Shown here: positions 6,979 through 26,371 of the stretch, in pieces
Numbering within the stretch: position 1 is the first letter of the stretch
Layout of the letters: each line of letters begins with the position of its first letter
DNA from: Desulfurococcales archaeon
Lineage (GTDB): Archaea > Thermoproteota > Thermoprotei_A > Sulfolobales > NBVN01
DNA length: 33,447 nucleotides
Assembly (NCBI GenBank): GCA_027002995.1
Contig: JALWZB010000149.1
Span: 1 to 33,447 of the forward strand
Direction: 5' to 3'
Notes under the pieces: model-generated
Database searches by the model: none
What the model was told of the DNA's origin: nothing
Seen by the model: the letters and a program-made list of their open reading frames with translations, nothing else
Made by a program: the position numbers and the translations under genes

Positions 6979-8379
6979 ATGCCCGGGAAAGCAACGATCT
7001 TAGGGGTAGCTATCATAGCGTTAATCCTAAGCTTCGTAGCGCTGGGCTTCATGTACTGGCAGAATCAGTCACTTAAGTCCCTAATAGCTAAGCAGAACGA
7101 GGAACTAAACAAGCTAGCCCAGAAGTTAGGAAGCATAGAGAAAAACTTGGCGAGTAATTCAGGAAAGATAGAGGACATAGGGCAAAAAGTGTCTAGCGTA
7201 GCTAGTGAAGTGAGTTCCGTGAAGAGCAGTGTCAGTAGTGTGGCAAGCAACCTTCAAAGCGTTCGGAGCGGGCTTAATAGCGTGCAGAGTAATGTCAAGA
7301 AGCTTAGTAACACTGTGAAAAGCGTGACCGCTGAAGTTAAGTCCCTAGCTGAAAGGCTTGCGAGCGTTACAAGTAACATTACGCTGATTCAAGATCAAAT
7401 TAAGGTGGTACAGAAACAAGTTGAGTCAATGAGGTATCCGCTCACGCTAACCGACGCCTTAGGCAGGCAAGTGACGATACCCTACAAGCCTCAGAGGATT
7501 GTCTCAACAGCCCCCTCCATAACCGAGATACTCTTCCTGGTTGGTGCTGGTAGCAACGTTGTCGGTGTCGATAAGTTCTCTAATTACCCCCCAGTAGTTA
7601 AGGAACTAGTCAAGAACGGCACCATCAAAGTCGTTGGGGGGTTCTCAACACTAAATATTGAGGCAATATTAATGCTGAAGCCCGACATAGTGTTTATGAC
7701 GACAGGTGTTCAGGAGCGCTACGCTAAGGAACTAGCTGGCATGGGCGTAACTGTGTTCGTGCTCCCATCTAGGGACATGGCTGACGTGTTTAGCGACATC
7801 CTAACGGTTGGGCTAATAACGGGTCATTTCAATAAGGCACTTAAGGTTGTGGAGGAGATGAGGAACATAATAACTAGCACTAGATTAAAGGTTGAGGAGT
7901 ACCTGAATAAGACAGGAGGTAAACCTGTTAAGGTGTACTATGAAATATACCCAGACTACTGGACTGTAGGTAGAACATCATTCATAAACGACATAATAAC
8001 GTTGGCAGGCGGTGTTAACATATTCGAGAACGAAACCACCTCCTACTTTGTGGCATCACCGGAAGCGGTCATAGCAGCGAACCCCGACGTGATCCTAATG
8101 AACTATAACTACGGGTACTTCGGCACAGTGAATGACTTAATCAAGCGCATCACATCAAGGGAGGGTTGGGCAAACATAACGGCTATCAAGGACGGGAGGA
8201 TATACGTGTTCAGCGGTGTTGCAGAAGATATCATGGTCCGTCCCGGGCCTAGGGCCGCGTTAGCGATAGCGCTCATGGCTAGGGTGCTTTACCCGCAGGC
8301 TTTCGGGATAACGGTAGTGCCTCACAACATAAACGAAACAGTTATGCAGGAGTGGGGCATACCTACATCGCTGGGGTAG
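6979..8379 (+). CDS. BtuF/FepB-like substrate-binding protein on a coiled-coil stalk
   Basis: 466 residues: an N-terminal membrane anchor (about 7-26), a long coiled coil (about 50-150), then a class III periplasmic-binding domain (about 155-466) starting LTDALGRQVTIPYKPQRIVS and containing PSITEILFLVGAG. This is the fold of cobalamin, haem and ferric-siderophore binding proteins. From residue 71 to 137 the heptads are unbroken, with V, L or I at every a position (71, 78, 85 ... 134) and d position (74, 81 ... 137). It should sit outside the membrane and deliver ligand to the permease encoded 3 bp downstream. ATG start, with GGTG 8 nt upstream. The ligand cannot be decided from sequence. Confidence 0.9.
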   Translation: MPGKATILGVAIIALILSFVALGFMYWQNQSLKSLIAKQNEELNKLAQKLGSIEKNLASNSGKIEDIGQKVSSVASEVSSVKSSVSSVASNLQSVRSGLNSVQSNVKKLSNTVKSVTAEVKSLAERLASVTSNITLIQDQIKVVQKQVESMRYPLTLTDALGRQVTIPYKPQRIVSTAPSITEILFLVGAGSNVVGVDKFSNYPPVVKELVKNGTIKVVGGFSTLNIEAILMLKPDIVFMTTGVQERYAKELAGMGVTVFVLPSRDMADVFSDILTVGLITGHFNKALKVVEEMRNIITSTRLKVEEYLNKTGGKPVKVYYEIYPDYWTVGRTSFINDIITLAGGVNIFENETTSYFVASPEAVIAANPDVILMNYNYGYFGTVNDLIKRITSREGWANITAIKDGRIYVFSGVAEDIMVRPGPRAALAIALMARVLYPQAFGITVVPHNINETVMQEWGIPTSLG

Positions 8380-8382
8380 CGG

Positions 8383-9411
8383 ATGTGTGCGTTAAGGGTG
8401 TACGTTGAGGTAACACGAAGAAGGTTTTTCGTAGCATTACTGATCGCCTTACTAATCCTTGTTCTTTCCTTTATGGCTCAACTAGCGTTCGGTGCAGTCA
8501 CGCTTAACCCTCTTCATGTTCTTGAAGATGGGTTAAGGGAAATACTTACCGCGACCACCGGTGTAGCTAGGTACAGGCTTGAACGTGCTTTAGCTGGCGT
8601 GGTGGTTGGAGCATCGCTTGCACTCTCTGGCTACTTAATACAGACAACTACGAGGAACCCCCTCGGCGACCCATACCTTCTCGGGATCTCATCAGGTGCT
8701 TTATTCGCTGTAGTGCTTACTTTCGCCCTCCCTGCCTCAGCCATCACGTTATTTGTAGTGAGGCCCTTTGCCGCCTTAATTGGGGGGATTATAGCGTACT
8801 TGCTTACCTTGCTAATAGCTAGTAAGGCTGGGATGACCCCGACCTCAATAGTGCTTTCGGGGGTTGCGGTCGGCACCTTCTTCTATTCAGCCTCGTTGTT
8901 TCCGCAGTACTTCATACTGCGTGACATACATAAGGTGTTCGCGTGGAGCATGGGTTCGTTGGTGGTGGTTAACCTTAATAAACCCATCGCAATAGCACTT
9001 GCCTTGGCGGTCTGCACAATATACTCGTGCGTATCTAGGAATGTCCTCAATGCGCTAAGCATTAGTGATGACTTCGTCCGTGACTTAGGTCGTGATCCCT
9101 CGAGAGAGCGGGTGATCCTAACAGCAATGGCCGCGGTGCTTGCTTCCTTCTGCGTAGCTTACTTCGGCGTAATAGGTTTCGTGGGTCTAGCATCACCGCA
9201 TTTCGCGAGAAGACTGCTGGGTAGCGGCGACGCGCGCTACATAATACCGCTCTCTCTTGTTTTCGGCGCGTCATTGCTTAGCTTAACTGATGTTGCGGCT
9301 AAAACAGTGTTCTACCCTATAGAAGTGCCTGTGAATGTGGTCGTATCACTGGTTGGTGCGCCTACACTGGCAGCTATAATGGTGGGGATGAGGAGGCATG
9401 CTCAGGGTTAA
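8383..9411 (+). CDS. FecCD/BtuC-family ABC importer permease
   Basis: A 342-residue polytopic membrane protein with about 9-10 hydrophobic segments. Family landmarks include RLERALAGVVVGASLALSG near residues 62-80, TRNPLGDPYLLGISSGA at 90-106, and the late GVIGFVGLASPHFARRLLG that contacts the ATPase. It forms the channel for the substrate held by the preceding binding protein, a cobalamin- or Fe(III)-chelate-type ligand. The ATG lies 3 bp after the upstream stop, and its 3' end overlaps the ATPase gene by 14 bp, so the three genes form one operon. Confidence 0.92.
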   Translation: MCALRVYVEVTRRRFFVALLIALLILVLSFMAQLAFGAVTLNPLHVLEDGLREILTATTGVARYRLERALAGVVVGASLALSGYLIQTTTRNPLGDPYLLGISSGALFAVVLTFALPASAITLFVVRPFAALIGGIIAYLLTLLIASKAGMTPTSIVLSGVAVGTFFYSASLFPQYFILRDIHKVFAWSMGSLVVVNLNKPIAIALALAVCTIYSCVSRNVLNALSISDDFVRDLGRDPSRERVILTAMAAVLASFCVAYFGVIGFVGLASPHFARRLLGSGDARYIIPLSLVFGASLLSLTDVAAKTVFYPIEVPVNVVVSLVGAPTLAAIMVGMRRHAQG

Positions 9412-10132
9412 GAACTTAAGCGTTGCTTATGGCAAGGCTAACGTTATTAAGAGCGTGAGCTTCGAGTTAAGACCGTCGTTGGTTGCGTTGATAGGGCCTA
9501 ACGGGTCTGGCAAGACCACATTACTTAAGGCGATAGCCGGCATGATACCGTACTCAGGGAAGGTACTCATTAATGGTATCAACTTGAGGCGTATCCGCGC
9601 AGACGAGCGCACGAAGTATGTTACCTATGTGCCGCCAACAATATCAGCGCTCCCTGACATGACGATAGGTGACCTCCTCCTAAGCGACAGTAATGCTGAC
9701 GTAGCCTTACTTGAGAAGTACGTAAGGATCTTCGGCGTAGAGCACTTGCTCTTCCGCAGAATATGGGAGGTTAGCTCGGGTGAATTAGAACGGGCCCTGC
9801 TGGCCAGGGGTTTAGCAAGGCGCTCTAAAGTGTTGCTAGTGGATGAACCTCTCTCATACACGGACGTGAGGTATCAGTTGGTGGTTATGAGGTGCTTAAG
9901 GAAGCTCGCTAACGAGGGCAGGGTGGTCGTGGTTGCGTCGAACCAGTTAAACCCCCTTCTTAACTATGTTGATCACGTGCTAGCGCTTAAGGATGGTAAG
10001 TTATTCATCAACGCCTCACTAAAGACCGGTGTGGACGAGGATAAGTTAAGTGAGCTCTACGGAGTTAAGATGAAGGTCATTACAATTGGCAACATTGTGG
10101 ATGTTGTTCCTGTTGACGAAGCGAAGGGCTAG
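9398..10132 (+). CDS. ABC importer ATPase with degenerate Q- and H-loops
   Basis: A 244-residue ATPase partner of the BtuC-like permease. Walker A is GPNGSGKT (33-40), the signature is VSSGELE (125-131), and Walker B is KVLLVDEP (144-151). Two normally invariant positions differ. The Q-loop reads YVPP near 77-80 instead of YVPQ. The switch histidine is replaced in VVVASNQLNP, where HDL would be expected. The catalytic Walker B glutamate is kept. The ATG overlaps the permease gene. Loss of the switch histidine usually weakens hydrolysis, so coupling in this transporter may be unusual. The role as the importer's motor comes from operon position. Confidence 0.88.
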   Translation: MLRVKNLSVAYGKANVIKSVSFELRPSLVALIGPNGSGKTTLLKAIAGMIPYSGKVLINGINLRRIRADERTKYVTYVPPTISALPDMTIGDLLLSDSNADVALLEKYVRIFGVEHLLFRRIWEVSSGELERALLARGLARRSKVLLVDEPLSYTDVRYQLVVMRCLRKLANEGRVVVVASNQLNPLLNYVDHVLALKDGKLFINASLKTGVDEDKLSELYGVKMKVITIGNIVDVVPVDEAKG

Positions 10133-21658: not shown

Positions 21659-22165
21659 TCAAGCACTCATGGACTCACTTAAGGTCCTCAGAACCTCATC
21701 GTATTCATTTTCCTTAATACGCGTCACAACATGGTAAACCGTGGGTGGGCTTAAGGAGTCCCTCTTAATGAGACCTAATACTTTCCTCGTGCTTATCGAT
21801 AGCCTCATGCGAAACGCCTCATCGAGGCTAAAGAACCCGGCATCCTCGCTTTCCTCGTTTAATCTAAGTTCGCCGCTAAAGTCCTTAATTAAGAAATCAA
21901 TAATGACATAATGATACTTCAAGTGTCCAGTAGTACTCAGGCAAATATACTCCGTAACCGCCAGCAACCTTGGATCATAACCAACTAAGCCCGTCTCCTC
22001 TAGCAATTCACGTAACACAGCCTCCTCCAGAGTTTCCCCTGGCTCCACATGTCCCCCTGGGAAAGACCAATACCCTGCTGACGGCTCAAACCTTCTCTTA
22101 ACCAGGAGTATCTTGTCCTGGTCTATGACAACAGCACCCACCCCTACCTTAGGTTGCGTGCTCAT
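21659..22165 (-). CDS. Nudix hydrolase
   Basis: A 168-residue pyrophosphohydrolase with a complete Nudix box G-x5-E-x7-REUxEExGU at residues 38-60 (GHVEPGETLEEAVLRELLEE). The first ~30 residues give the usual beta strands (VGVGAVVIDQDKILLVKRR), and WSFPGGH precedes the box. An extra C-terminal ~40 residues are not part of the core fold. Substrates of this group include ADP-ribose, 8-oxo-dGTP and NADH; the sequence does not say which. ATG start. It is divergent from the synthase-PadR gene, with a 95-bp gap. Confidence 0.88.
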   Translation of the reverse strand: MSTQPKVGVGAVVIDQDKILLVKRRFEPSAGYWSFPGGHVEPGETLEEAVLRELLEETGLVGYDPRLLAVTEYICLSTTGHLKYHYVIIDFLIKDFSGELRLNEESEDAGFFSLDEAFRMRLSISTRKVLGLIKRDSLSPPTVYHVVTRIKENEYDEVLRTLSESMSA

Positions 22166-22260: not shown

Positions 22261-23574
22261 ATGAAGAATGAGTTAACGTGTGTGGAGTGCGGCCGCACGT
22301 ACCCTGCGACGTCAGGCAGGGTTAGGTGCGTTTGTGGGGGGCAGTTAGTCCCAACCTTACCCAAAAGCTTGAGACGCGTTAACGCACCCGGTATTTGGTC
22401 CTGGGAAGCCGCCCTAATGACATCAGTATTTAGTGACAGGGTAACGCTGTACGAGGGAAACACACCGCTGGTACGCGCCCCTAAGCTAGCTAAGGAGCTT
22501 AACCTGAAGGAAATTTACCTTAAGGACGAGTCTAGAAACCCGTCAGGTACGTTCATAGACAGAGGTTCAGCAACCCTCGTTACCGCGACTAGGTCGTTGC
22601 GTCTAGCACGTCTAGTCACGGCGTCCTTAGGTGATTTAGGGGTATCGGTGGCTACATACTCTAGACGTGCAGGGCTCAGATGCAAGGTGATAATGCCCTC
22701 ATACATTACTCCAGTGAAGGCGTACCAGACGGCAATGCTGGCAGATAGTGTTGAGTATGTTGAGAGTTACGAGGAATCGCTGAGCAAGGCTTGGAAGTAT
22801 GGCTCAGCACCAGCCAGCATGCCAGTAACGCCACAGAACCCCTTCTTGCTTGATGGCTATAGAACCCTAGCCATGGAGATACTTACCGACCTGAGGACAG
22901 GGAAACCAGGCGTGGTACTTGTCCCCGTGGGGGACGGTGCCTTAGCTTACGCGACCCTGCAAATCATAAGCAAGTTCAGCCCAGACACGACGGTCATAGG
23001 GGTTCGAACATCCTCAAAGTCACCACTACTCAAAGACGTGGCTGTTGACCACCCTCTCTTCGCTGACCTACTTAAGGATCTAATGGACCGTAGTGGAGGA
23101 TACATGATTGAAGTTGAGGAGGACGATGTTGTGTCGGCGCTCAAGCTACTAGCAAGGTGCGAGGGAATGCTAACGGAACTCACCGGCGCTACGGCTGTCG
23201 CCGCATTGATTAAGCTATCTGACGACCTACGTAGTACGTCACCAATAGTCTCAATAATATCGGGAGGACCTGCCAGGGACCCGGCAGTCCTCAGGATGGT
23301 GGTGGGCGAGGGGCACCCCAGGTACTTAACAAGAATAGGCTTCACTAAAATGAAGATCCTAGAGATCCTTGCACTCCAAGGTCCCTTACACCCTTACGCC
23401 GTATGGAAGATCCTGAAGAGCGAGTACGGAGTGAACGTAAGTTTACGTTCCATATACCAGCACTTCAGCGAACTGAGCGAGATGCAGCTCGTGGAGAGTG
23501 CCGAGGAGAGGGAGGGTAAGAGGAGAAGGAAGGTGTTCAGAATAACGGATGAGGGTCTAAGCCTGATCAGGTAG
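22261..23574 (+). CDS. pseudo-threonine-synthase fused to PadR winged helix: putative regulator
   Basis: A 437-residue fusion. Residues 7-25 form a C-x2-C...C-x-C zinc knuckle. About 55-350 follow the threonine-synthase/fold-type II PLP plan. Residues 358-437 are a PadR-like winged helix (ALQGPLHPYAVWKIL, SLRSIYQHFSEL, KRRRKVFRITDEG). Cofactor residues are changed: NPSGTFIDRG (93-102) has I99 (ATA at 22555-22557) where the Schiff-base lysine of SFKDRG belongs; SLGDLGVSV (122-130) replaces the SxGNxxxS loop; and VGDGALA (223-229) replaces the VGNGG phosphate loop. Catalysis is therefore unlikely. I infer a ligand-sensing transcription factor. It is followed on the same strand by an ECF transporter. 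Confidence 0.85.
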   Translation: MKNELTCVECGRTYPATSGRVRCVCGGQLVPTLPKSLRRVNAPGIWSWEAALMTSVFSDRVTLYEGNTPLVRAPKLAKELNLKEIYLKDESRNPSGTFIDRGSATLVTATRSLRLARLVTASLGDLGVSVATYSRRAGLRCKVIMPSYITPVKAYQTAMLADSVEYVESYEESLSKAWKYGSAPASMPVTPQNPFLLDGYRTLAMEILTDLRTGKPGVVLVPVGDGALAYATLQIISKFSPDTTVIGVRTSSKSPLLKDVAVDHPLFADLLKDLMDRSGGYMIEVEEDDVVSALKLLARCEGMLTELTGATAVAALIKLSDDLRSTSPIVSIISGGPARDPAVLRMVVGEGHPRYLTRIGFTKMKILEILALQGPLHPYAVWKILKSEYGVNVSLRSIYQHFSELSEMQLVESAEEREGKRRRKVFRITDEGLSLIR

Positions 23575-23669
23575 TCCTTTCGCTAAGCACGGATGGACAA
23601 GGGTATTGAAGCGCATACTGAGGTTAACTCCCTTATTGATGGACACCTTCTTACAGGCTTGGGGAGATC

Positions 23670-24428
23670 ATGGGTAGGGTGAGCGTAGCTAAACTAGCGC
23701 TCTTCACGGCGCTAGTTTACGTGGCGACCATAGTCCTTCAGGTATACACACCCGCGACCAGAGGTTACTTCAACTTAGGCGAGACCGCTATCTACGCCAT
23801 AGCTGCTTTAGCAAATCCGTTGCTAGCCGGCATTGCTGCTGGTGTAGGGTCGGCGTTGGCGGACCTAACGACAGGTTACGGATATTTTGCACCCGGTACC
23901 TTAGTGATTAAATTTGTTGAGGGATTCACTGTAGCGTACCTAATGAGGAAGCTGGCCCCCAAATCAAGGTACTGGTTAGCTAGGGCGTTATCCGTGATTG
24001 CTTCGGTAGCCACTGGCGCCGCAATAGCCGCTGTAGGTTACTTCACACTATCGGGTCTATCGGAAATAACGTCAATACCGATTCAGGTCGGCGGCTTTGA
24101 GGTGACGGCCTTCTACGGTAAAATAGTGATCCCTAGCCTCGTGTGGTTGCTCATAGGCGTGCTAGTGACGGTGATACTACTGTACGCTGTCCTCGTAAGG
24201 AGTAAGGAGAACGTCTCTGCCGCAGCCTCTATGCTTGTGGGAGGTACGTTTATGGTGCTAGGATACTTCCTCTACGAGTTCTTCATCACGAACCCGCTGA
24301 TATATCACGCGCCGCCAGAACAGGCACTAGTGGAGGTACCAGTAAACTTTGGTCAAGTACTAGTTGGCATCACGGTCGCATTACCGATAACGTCATTCAT
24401 AAGAGAGGCTACTGGAAGTGAGGGTTAA
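23670..24428 (+). CDS. ECF transporter S component (vitamin-type)
   Basis: A 252-residue membrane protein with about six hydrophobic segments. The start VAKLALFTALVYVATIVLQV and the stretch FNLGETAIYAIAALANPLLAGIAAGVGSALADLTTGY with GTLVIKFVEG are typical of S components of the COG4720 type, a group that includes proposed hydroxymethylpyrimidine and pyridoxine carriers. The protein binds the vitamin and docks to the shared EcfT/ATPase module encoded downstream. ATG 23670 abuts GGGGAGATC; GTG 23679 is better spaced from it and is an alternative. The extra C-terminal ~60 residues are longer than most S components. The substrate is an inference. Confidence 0.85.
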   Translation: MGRVSVAKLALFTALVYVATIVLQVYTPATRGYFNLGETAIYAIAALANPLLAGIAAGVGSALADLTTGYGYFAPGTLVIKFVEGFTVAYLMRKLAPKSRYWLARALSVIASVATGAAIAAVGYFTLSGLSEITSIPIQVGGFEVTAFYGKIVIPSLVWLLIGVLVTVILLYAVLVRSKENVSAAASMLVGGTFMVLGYFLYEFFITNPLIYHAPPEQALVEVPVNFGQVLVGITVALPITSFIREATGSEG

Positions 24429-25671
24429 GGTAAAAGACTTAAACGTAGTTTTCGATGGTGCGAGTATTCTCTCAAACCTCAACTTAACAGTATGTGAGGG
24501 GGAGGCAGTACTCGTCACGGGACCGTCAGGGTCAGGTAAAACAACGTTGCTCAGAACGATCCTTGGCATAGTGCCTAATGTAATCTCCGGGTCGGTGAGG
24601 GGATTCATTGAGCCTGAGCCATGTATAATTAGAAGTAAAGCATATTACGTCCCTCAAGAGCCGTGGTTTTCCGTAATTACACCCTACGTCTGGTCCGAGA
24701 TAATGTCGTTTACTCCCTCCCAACTCGGGTTGGGAGACGTTGAGGATATGCTTAGTGCTTGGGGCATGAGCGGGTATGCCTTCAGGACAACGTACACCCT
24801 GAGCGCTGGGGAGCTACAGAGACTAGCGTTAATGGTGGCTATGCTCTCACGTAAGGAGGTAGTGTTGCTTGATGAGCCAGCATCACATCTAGACTCGAGA
24901 AACGCTGAGAAAGTCGTAAGAACCGTTAACGCGCTCAGGGACTCCGGCGTAGCAGTGATTATAGTTGATCATGACGTTAAGGCGTGGATGGGCTTAGTTG
25001 ATAAGGCCTACGTTCTCAGAAACGGCACGCTGGACGAAGACATCACGAGTTACTACAAGGAGTTTGATAAGCTAGTGAGTGAGCTAAGCAAGCCAAGGAC
25101 GCAGGGCGACACTGCACTTGAGGTAAGGGTAACCAAGTACAGACCTCCGGGATCACGCAAGATAGTGTTAGAAGACGTAGAGTTCACCGTGAGGAGGGGT
25201 GAGGTAGTGCTGGTGAAGGGCCCATCAGGCTCCGGTAAGACGACGTTGCTTAGGTTACTCGCAACGAGCGTCAAGGAGCCTGTGCCTGGCATAAAGGCTA
25301 ACGTCACCGGCAGGCTCATCTACGTCCCGGACAACCCTCTACTTTACTTCACAGAACCGATAGTAGCTAAGGAAGTGGGTGAAGGCGGTATTGAGAAGTT
25401 AAGGGAGTTCGGTATTACCGGCAGAGAATTCACGCCGATCACTAGGTTAAGCACGGGCGAGAGAAGAAGAGTGGCTGTGGCTTCAGCCATAGTTAGGGGT
25501 GCTTCAATTGTCGTCATGGATGAACCGACGGTGGGGCTAGATATTATCAGTAAGGTGCGGGTGTTGAAGGCCATAGTTAAGGCGGCTGAGGACGGCGCAG
25601 CTTTCGTTATCGCCTCCCACGATCCCCTGGTGGAACGCATAGCGAATAAGGTAGTGAACATCCATGGTTAG
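24418..25671 (+). CDS. fused ECF ATPases (EcfA-EcfA')
   Basis: A 417-residue protein with two ABC ATPase domains in tandem. Domain 1 (about 1-220): Walker A GPSGSGKT (35-42), Q80, signature LSAGELQ (128-134), Walker B VVLLDEP, H185. Domain 2 (about 234-417): Walker A GPSGSGKT (268-275), signature LSTGERR (344-350), Walker B IVVMDEP, H401; its Q-loop reads YVPD (302-305), with D in the Gln position. In ECF importers these are usually two separate proteins, EcfA1 and EcfA2. GTG start overlaps the S-component gene by 11 bp, and the 3' end overlaps ecfT by 8 bp. Confidence 0.92.
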   Translation: MRVKVKDLNVVFDGASILSNLNLTVCEGEAVLVTGPSGSGKTTLLRTILGIVPNVISGSVRGFIEPEPCIIRSKAYYVPQEPWFSVITPYVWSEIMSFTPSQLGLGDVEDMLSAWGMSGYAFRTTYTLSAGELQRLALMVAMLSRKEVVLLDEPASHLDSRNAEKVVRTVNALRDSGVAVIIVDHDVKAWMGLVDKAYVLRNGTLDEDITSYYKEFDKLVSELSKPRTQGDTALEVRVTKYRPPGSRKIVLEDVEFTVRRGEVVLVKGPSGSGKTTLLRLLATSVKEPVPGIKANVTGRLIYVPDNPLLYFTEPIVAKEVGEGGIEKLREFGITGREFTPITRLSTGERRRVAVASAIVRGASIVVMDEPTVGLDIISKVRVLKAIVKAAEDGAAFVIASHDPLVERIANKVVNIHG

Positions 25672-26371
25672 CGCAGGCACGGTGTTTCGGTGGATCTCCG
25701 AAGTTATATTCAGGTCAATCTTTGCTGGCGATGATACGCCGTTCAAGCACTCCACGCTACTAATAAACACACCTTTAGTCGTTACTCAGATACTCCTAGC
25801 ATCCGAGGGACCAACAGGAGTAGTTGTAACAATGGCATCCCTCTTAGCAGTTCACCTCATGGCAGGAACTTTAGAAGCGCTAGCATACGCGTTAATAATG
25901 ACTTCCTTGCCGGCAGTCTGGTACTTCCTGACAACACTACCATTTACAACATCTTTGACGACATCCGCCATAATTGCGTTCAGAGTAATCGCCGTTGGGT
26001 CAGCACTCTTAACGTTCATATACTTCCTGAACCCGCTGGAACTCTCAACGCTGGCACATAAGCTATGCCTTAAGAAAGTATCATTGTACCCAGCAATGAC
26101 GTGGAAGGTCACACCCCACGTGATGAGGGACATGAAGTCAGCAATGCTCTCGGCGGAATTAAAGGGTGAGAAACTCTGGAAGGCATTAGCAGTAACAATA
26201 CTTGCTGTGAACGAGTATAGCAGTATGTATGAAGAGGGAACCTACGCGCGTATGCAGGACTTCAAGCCACGGTACTGGTATGACGGCAAAGCAATGTTGG
26301 TATTCACCCTAATCCTTGCGGTAGACATTACTGTGTTACTCCTGCTCTACCTAAGGATGATTCCAGCTTAA
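25664..26371 (+). CDS. ECF transporter transmembrane T component
   Basis: A 235-residue membrane protein, the scaffold joining S component and ATPases. Hydrophobic segments lie at about 33-65, 69-90, 98-120 and 212-229, with a cytosolic coupling region between about 140 and 205 (KVTPHVMRDMKSAMLSAELKGEKLW). EcfT proteins carry two short A-R-G type coupling motifs that dock in the ATPases; here they are degenerate (SAELKG, TYARMQ). The name therefore rests on position and topology as much as motif. ATG overlaps the ATPase gene by 8 bp. Confidence 0.78.
   Translation: MVSAGTVFRWISEVIFRSIFAGDDTPFKHSTLLINTPLVVTQILLASEGPTGVVVTMASLLAVHLMAGTLEALAYALIMTSLPAVWYFLTTLPFTTSLTTSAIIAFRVIAVGSALLTFIYFLNPLELSTLAHKLCLKKVSLYPAMTWKVTPHVMRDMKSAMLSAELKGEKLWKALAVTILAVNEYSSMYEEGTYARMQDFKPRYWYDGKAMLVFTLILAVDITVLLLLYLRMIPA

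Follow-up and report, generated by a model that had tools for sequence, protein, structure and literature searches.

A lysine-less threonine synthase-like fold joined to a winged helix as a predicted vitamin B6-responsive regulator in archaea

The window analysed here, a stretch of 33,447 nucleotides forming contig C149 of an archaeal MAG (1.86 Mb, 98% complete; genome G000), encodes a protein, PALPr, which very probably acts as a one-component transcription factor that descends from a threonine synthase-like enzyme, likely binds a B6 vitamer and adjusts transcription of the EcfS-AA'-T importer encoded behind it. The case is built from sequence: the architecture of the protein, the loss of the catalytic lysine with retention of most pocket positions, linkage to both EcfS and pdxST, and operator motifs common to the two. 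We conclude that members of the family are putative B6-responsive transcription factors of archaea, functional counterparts of bacterial MocR/PdxR made from different parts. In many archaea they appear to switch the genes by which B6 is taken up and made. The wider reading, which we regard as rather likely, is of an archaeal B6 regulon in Thermoproteota and beyond, in which a lysine-less fold-type-II PLP-enzyme fossil with an attached winged helix would, in convergence with MocR/PdxR, sense PLP non-covalently and govern pdxST, the ECF importer and several unrecognised transporters. This goes beyond the initial annotation of the stretch, which had proposed a local pairing of regulator and importer: the unit would be part of a wider B6 regulon, and the regulator's family carries the annotation threonine synthase.

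The regulator gene (22261-23574, forward strand; 437 aa) encodes a Zn-ribbon-like N-terminus, a threonine synthase-like PALP domain and, at the C-terminus, a winged helix of PadR type. The next genes on the same strand encode EcfS, the substrate-binding component, of the PdxU/HmpT family (23670-24428), an EcfA-EcfA' fusion in which one chain carries two complete ABC ATPase domains (24418-25671; Pfam, alignment), and the transmembrane coupling component EcfT (25664-26371; 235 aa), assigned by synteny and by fold match to CbiQ/EcfT. The initial annotation had read the same order, a pseudo-synthase-PadR gene ahead of S component, fused ATPases and T component with the last three overlapping, and Pfam, alignment and the T-component fold bear it out, the overlaps being 11 bp (EcfS/EcfA-A') and 8 bp (EcfA-A'/EcfT). 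The importer has S, A/A' and T components in one operon, as group-I ECF transporters do. The T component had no Pfam match and sequence searches gave no identity; the 12 best structural matches of its AF2 model (pLDDT 88) are all EcfT/CbiQ (Z 7.3-10.7), with the next fold at 5.5. No known riboswitch was found at the importer, an Rfam scan of the window returning one tRNA only. Divergent from the regulator lies a Nudix hydrolase gene (21659-22165, reverse strand; Pfam), a possible accessory part, which is conserved in family f1 and also stands upstream of EcfS in f9 genomes. Nudix hydrolases repeatedly adjoin the regulator or EcfS, and one is divergent from pdxS in G031 (examples in the window and at L064, L067, L080 and L116 10576-11037). 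The FlK thioesterase, creatininase-like and TyrRS genes downstream were considered as parts of the system and judged to be neighbours, their conservation being confined to f1. The window also holds a complete Peripla_BP_2/FecCD/ATPase importer of siderophore or cobalamin type (6979-10132), unrelated to the B6 finding.

In PALPr itself, Pfam places the PALP domain (PF00291) at residues 61-335 (E 6.5e-55) and the PadR domain (PF03551) at residues 366-432 (E 9.6e-10), and this winged helix is present in 17 of 18 aligned homologues. The AF2 model (pLDDT 89) overlays threonine synthases with Z up to 40.2 (2.4 A over 339 residues against 2c2b), the winged helix being an added C-terminal part (residues about 361-436). 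Where threonine synthases carry the PLP lysine (SFKDRG), PALPr has Ile99 (GTFIDRG). The gene is under purifying selection, with dN/dS of about 0.1 (about 0.08-0.12 against three congeners, by two methods), which argues that it is not decaying.

Conservation of the gene pair was the check that the initial annotation had set for its idea, and the regulator-EcfS pairing is in fact kept across archaeal orders and phyla. Among 124 HTH-fused PALPs, 55 have a COG4720/PF07155 EcfS gene no more than 4 kb away and 24 have pdxS/pdxT (PLP synthase) inside the same distance, while the other 45 have neither nearby, partly owing to contig ends; many of the genomes behind these counts are fragmented MAGs and the loci are related to one another. 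On a tree of the 124 fusions the partner changes between EcfS and pdx at least four times. Full-length fusions number 81 in 118 relatives and comprise 44 long forms (about 430-470 aa) and 37 short forms (about 370 aa). Among the 44 long forms, 25 are within 6 kb of EcfS, most of them sharing its strand and standing about 100 bp ahead of it; among the short forms, 21 adjoin pdxS-pdxT and one adjoins EcfS. One long form, in G056, stands ahead of pdxS-pdxT. Outside the order, regulator-EcfS pairs, often divergent, occur in Aigarchaeota (Terraquivivens), Bathyarchaeota, Methanomethylicota, Tiamatella and an Asgard-group MAG, and in one family outside the order (G248) the regulator is divergent from pdxST. 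In several f2 genomes a lysine-less clade of 465-470 aa proteins (L092, L093, L169) has biotin carboxylase genes nearby in place of B6 genes, and its regulon may differ.

Three lineage-specific motifs, a short form, an f9 long form and an f1 long form, are predicted operators, and each joins both partner loci. About 20 genomes carry the short-form motif TATTGAACGTTCAATAA upstream of pdxS; it is also found in the PALPr-EcfS interval of G009, and in G038 and G057 it precedes EcfS. GAACGTTC palindromes occur at pdxS and, in the latter three genomes, at EcfS. When 30 genomes were scanned with TGAACGTTCMNYAA, there were 37 matches, mostly at pdxS promoters, against 3 for the reversed control. The f9 long form, CTTAAAGNNNAAACTTTA, is located between PALPr and EcfS; the whole G088 genome holds two exact sites, at EcfS and at pdxS, where 0.02 would be expected, and CTTAAAGnnnAAACTTTA likewise occurs there exactly twice, ahead of EcfS and ahead of pdxS. 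In the window the predicted operator TATTGAAGCGCATACTGAGG (23604-23623, forward strand) consists of two TATTG boxes 12 bp apart, with the EcfS start codon 46 bp on. It is the sole exact match in G000 to the f1 pattern TATTGANGNNNATAYTGANG, which is also matched exactly at the pdxS promoter of G056. Genera g1, g9 and g10 keep the f1 operator in the PALPr-EcfS interval, a match stands before EcfS in g2, and sites with one mismatch are found at pdxS in G021 and before an unlinked EcfS in G039. No clear conserved motif was seen upstream of PALPr itself in f1.

A position weight matrix trained on EcfS promoters only was applied to 443 upstream regions and ranked the pdxS promoters of G005 and G056 (16.9 and 16.3 bits) below the EcfS promoters and below one other promoter (18.4 bits); the remaining regions scored 12.0 bits or less, except for the gene sharing the G005 intergenic region. 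The pdxS promoter of G001, from the window's genus, reached 4.7 bits, and thus the operator link does not show in all genomes. The f1, f9 and short-form operators are dissimilar, so that control by a common regulator family would need binding specificity to have drifted.

Several further genes carry these motifs. A GAACGTTC operator precedes genes for an ABC solute-binding protein and permease in three genomes (L283 6262-7635 and 4538-6265; L285 11442-14497; L284 1-356), a candidate B6 ABC importer, and a similar binding protein is divergent from a long-form regulator in G014 (L094 7325-8692). GAACGTTC palindromes also stand before MFS (Sugar_tr) and amino-acid-permease-type transporters (L279 7150-8367, L281 7461-8675, L280 8491-9888), which are candidate B6 transporters; PdxS and EcfS both went undetected in the two genomes that have them. 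In G037, a genome with a short-form regulator elsewhere, the interval separating EcfT from a radical SAM gene contains a perfect GAACGTTC palindrome (L286 4640-4657). In G008 and G016, where EcfS was not found, an exact f1 operator precedes an operon of AIRS-like, radical SAM and NCS1 permease genes (L287 1747-4934, L288 1743-4934), and an AIRS-like protein is encoded divergently from EcfS in G031 (L061 7152-8174).

The fold of PALPr is that of threonine synthase, PLP demand tracks amino-acid metabolism and some MocR regulators serve other metabolites (PMC5320631), so the protein might recognise an amino acid or a different ligand of the former substrate pocket (threonine, serine or O-phosphohomoserine) and couple B6 supply to amino-acid metabolism. 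We consider this unlikely, however, as the linked genes and motif targets are mostly B6 synthesis and transporter genes, and the operator scans placed operators on no threonine-pathway gene. A B6 vitamer is the ligand we prefer, and the initial proposal that the regulator controls B6 uptake gains support from the conserved pairing, from pdxS-pdxT neighbours elsewhere and from motifs common to EcfS and pdxS.

The resemblance of the importer's S component to COG4720, noted at the outset, holds: EcfS matches PF07155 (E 1.6e-25), and its only sequence match in the PDB is 4HZU chain S (HmpT/PdxU2; E 5.4e-5 with the single sequence, 1.3e-9 with a profile). PF07155/COG4720 is a family of predicted or verified B6 carriers, PdxU and PdxU2/HmpT (PMC9997740), and for HmpT of L. 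brevis pyridoxamine was assigned by mass spectrometry and simulation (PMC4860826). Archaeal S components keep Glu41 of HmpT (Glu38) and replace His84 and Gln87 by invariant Lys81 and Glu84, so the exact vitamer carried is uncertain. Across 118 genomes, 19 have both EcfS and PdxS, 37 EcfS only, 41 PdxS only and 21 neither, an anticorrelation (Fisher p 8e-4, uncorrected for phylogeny) that is accompanied by a weaker one between EcfS and ThiC (p 0.007); since EcfS anticorrelates with both, presence and absence of PdxS and ThiC cannot separate B6 from thiamine. The search for PdxS found none in the genome of the window, which suggests that the organism depends on uptake.

It is quite improbable that the importer carries thiamine or the HMP moiety and that PALPr is a thiamine regulator, given that pdxST shares both regulator family and operators with the importer and that the known PdxU carriers fall in PF07155. 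Members of COG4720 were initially predicted to carry HMP (HmpT; PMC4860826), most genomes with a PALPr-linked ECF importer are without ThiC, and the NCS1 permease operon of G008 and G016 bears an f1 operator, all of which would suit thiamine. The initial annotation had looked to shared promoter motifs near other B6 or thiamine genes: the B6 half of this expectation was borne out by the EcfS-pdxS operators, whereas the motif turned up at no thiamine synthesis gene.

The initial observation of a PLP-enzyme fold without its lysine extends well beyond Ile99, as the lysine is missing in 123 of the 124 HTH-fused homologues, which have R, I, L, A, S, T, V, Y, M or F instead, whereas 18 of 19 PALPs without an HTH retain it and the remaining one is truncated at a contig end. 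The second Gly of the phosphate loop is retained in all 124 fusions, the N1-contact position is Thr/Ser in 117 and the O3' position is Asn/Asp in 118, the roles being those that these positions have in this fold. A pocket retained and a lysine gone fits a binding pocket without chemistry. The sole HTH-fused PALP found with the PLP lysine (L328 4662-6074; NPTNSFKDR) sits inside a clade having Arg there. A single origin of the lysine-less fusion is not claimed, as a first tree gave one change (SH-aLRT 60) and an enlarged tree four.

The window's genome also encodes a lysine-bearing threonine synthase, directly upstream of a homoserine-kinase-like gene (L271; the kinase read from sequence). The NCBI equivalog model NF004170 (PRK05638), named threonine synthase, has a cutoff of 421 bits and gives 695 bits to a protein of G048 that is a lysine-less, Arg-bearing PALP-HTH fusion adjoining an ECF importer; the model likely names regulators as threonine synthase, a systematic misannotation. 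That PALPr is an unusual active enzyme of the kind this model names, its ECF neighbourhood being coincidental, is scarcely credible in view of the near-universal lysine loss, the separate threonine synthase, and the DNA-binding domain with its matching operators.

For PALPr as a B6-responsive regulator, the following mechanism can be proposed. An ancestral enzyme would have lost the Schiff-base lysine, retained most of the PLP pocket as a ligand site and acquired a C-terminal PadR-type winged helix. The lysine-less PALP domain would then read B6 status, most simply with PLP as an effector bound non-covalently, and we infer that the winged helix binds operators near the importer or pdxST promoter, which in the window would be the site ahead of EcfS. 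The importer would bring a B6 vitamer into the cell, and in relatives the same regulator family would govern pdxST, or pdxST plus the importer. With regard to the sign of regulation, the f9 palindrome extends into the TATA-like CTTTATATTA, which would suit repression by the PLP-bound protein at plentiful PLP, and repression is preferred where operator and TATA-like sequence overlap in this way. In f1 about 10 bp separate the end of the operator from the likely TATA sequence downstream, a position that leaves room for activation by the apo-protein, as for PdxR.

B6 transporters have been described as poorly studied (PMC9997740), and the predicted operator targets point towards new ones. A search of the openly accessible literature found no published archaeal B6 regulator and no paper on PRK05638. 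PALPr and its relatives offer a candidate for this role, with predicted operators and with relevance to cultured hyperthermophiles; they would exemplify the convergent recruitment of PLP-enzyme folds as transcription sensors, and recognising them corrects a likely misannotation of regulators as threonine synthase.

Each part of the system has known relatives from which it departs. PALPr has the PALP fold of the threonine synthase group, and its best structural matches are threonine synthases, but it is without the Schiff-base lysine, has a C-terminal DNA-binding domain and does not stand beside threonine genes. The importer shares with the L. brevis PdxU2/HmpT ECF transporter (PDB 4HZU) a PF07155/COG4720 S component, A, A' and T components and a pocket Glu (Glu41/Glu38); it differs in being archaeal, in forming a dedicated group-I operon with fused ATPases, and in having Lys81/Glu84 for His84/Gln87. 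PadR-family regulators usually have a C-terminal dimerisation helix, whereas the PF03551 winged helix of PALPr is fused to a PALP domain instead. MocR proteins retain the PLP-binding lysine and, like PdxR, place an N-terminal GntR wHTH before a fold-type-I aminotransferase domain; the archaeal PALPr has a lysine-less fold-type-II sensor (PF00291) and a C-terminal PadR domain. Both are one-component proteins that join a winged helix to a sensor derived from a PLP enzyme, and both have pdxST and importer genes as targets, those of PALPr being predicted by comparative genomics, from linkage and common operators. Bacterial PdxR controls pdxST and pdxU, and MocR is reported absent from Archaea (PMC5320631). 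Because of this absence, the different sensor fold, the different DNA-binding domain and the lost lysine, PALPr is not a member of MocR/PdxR.
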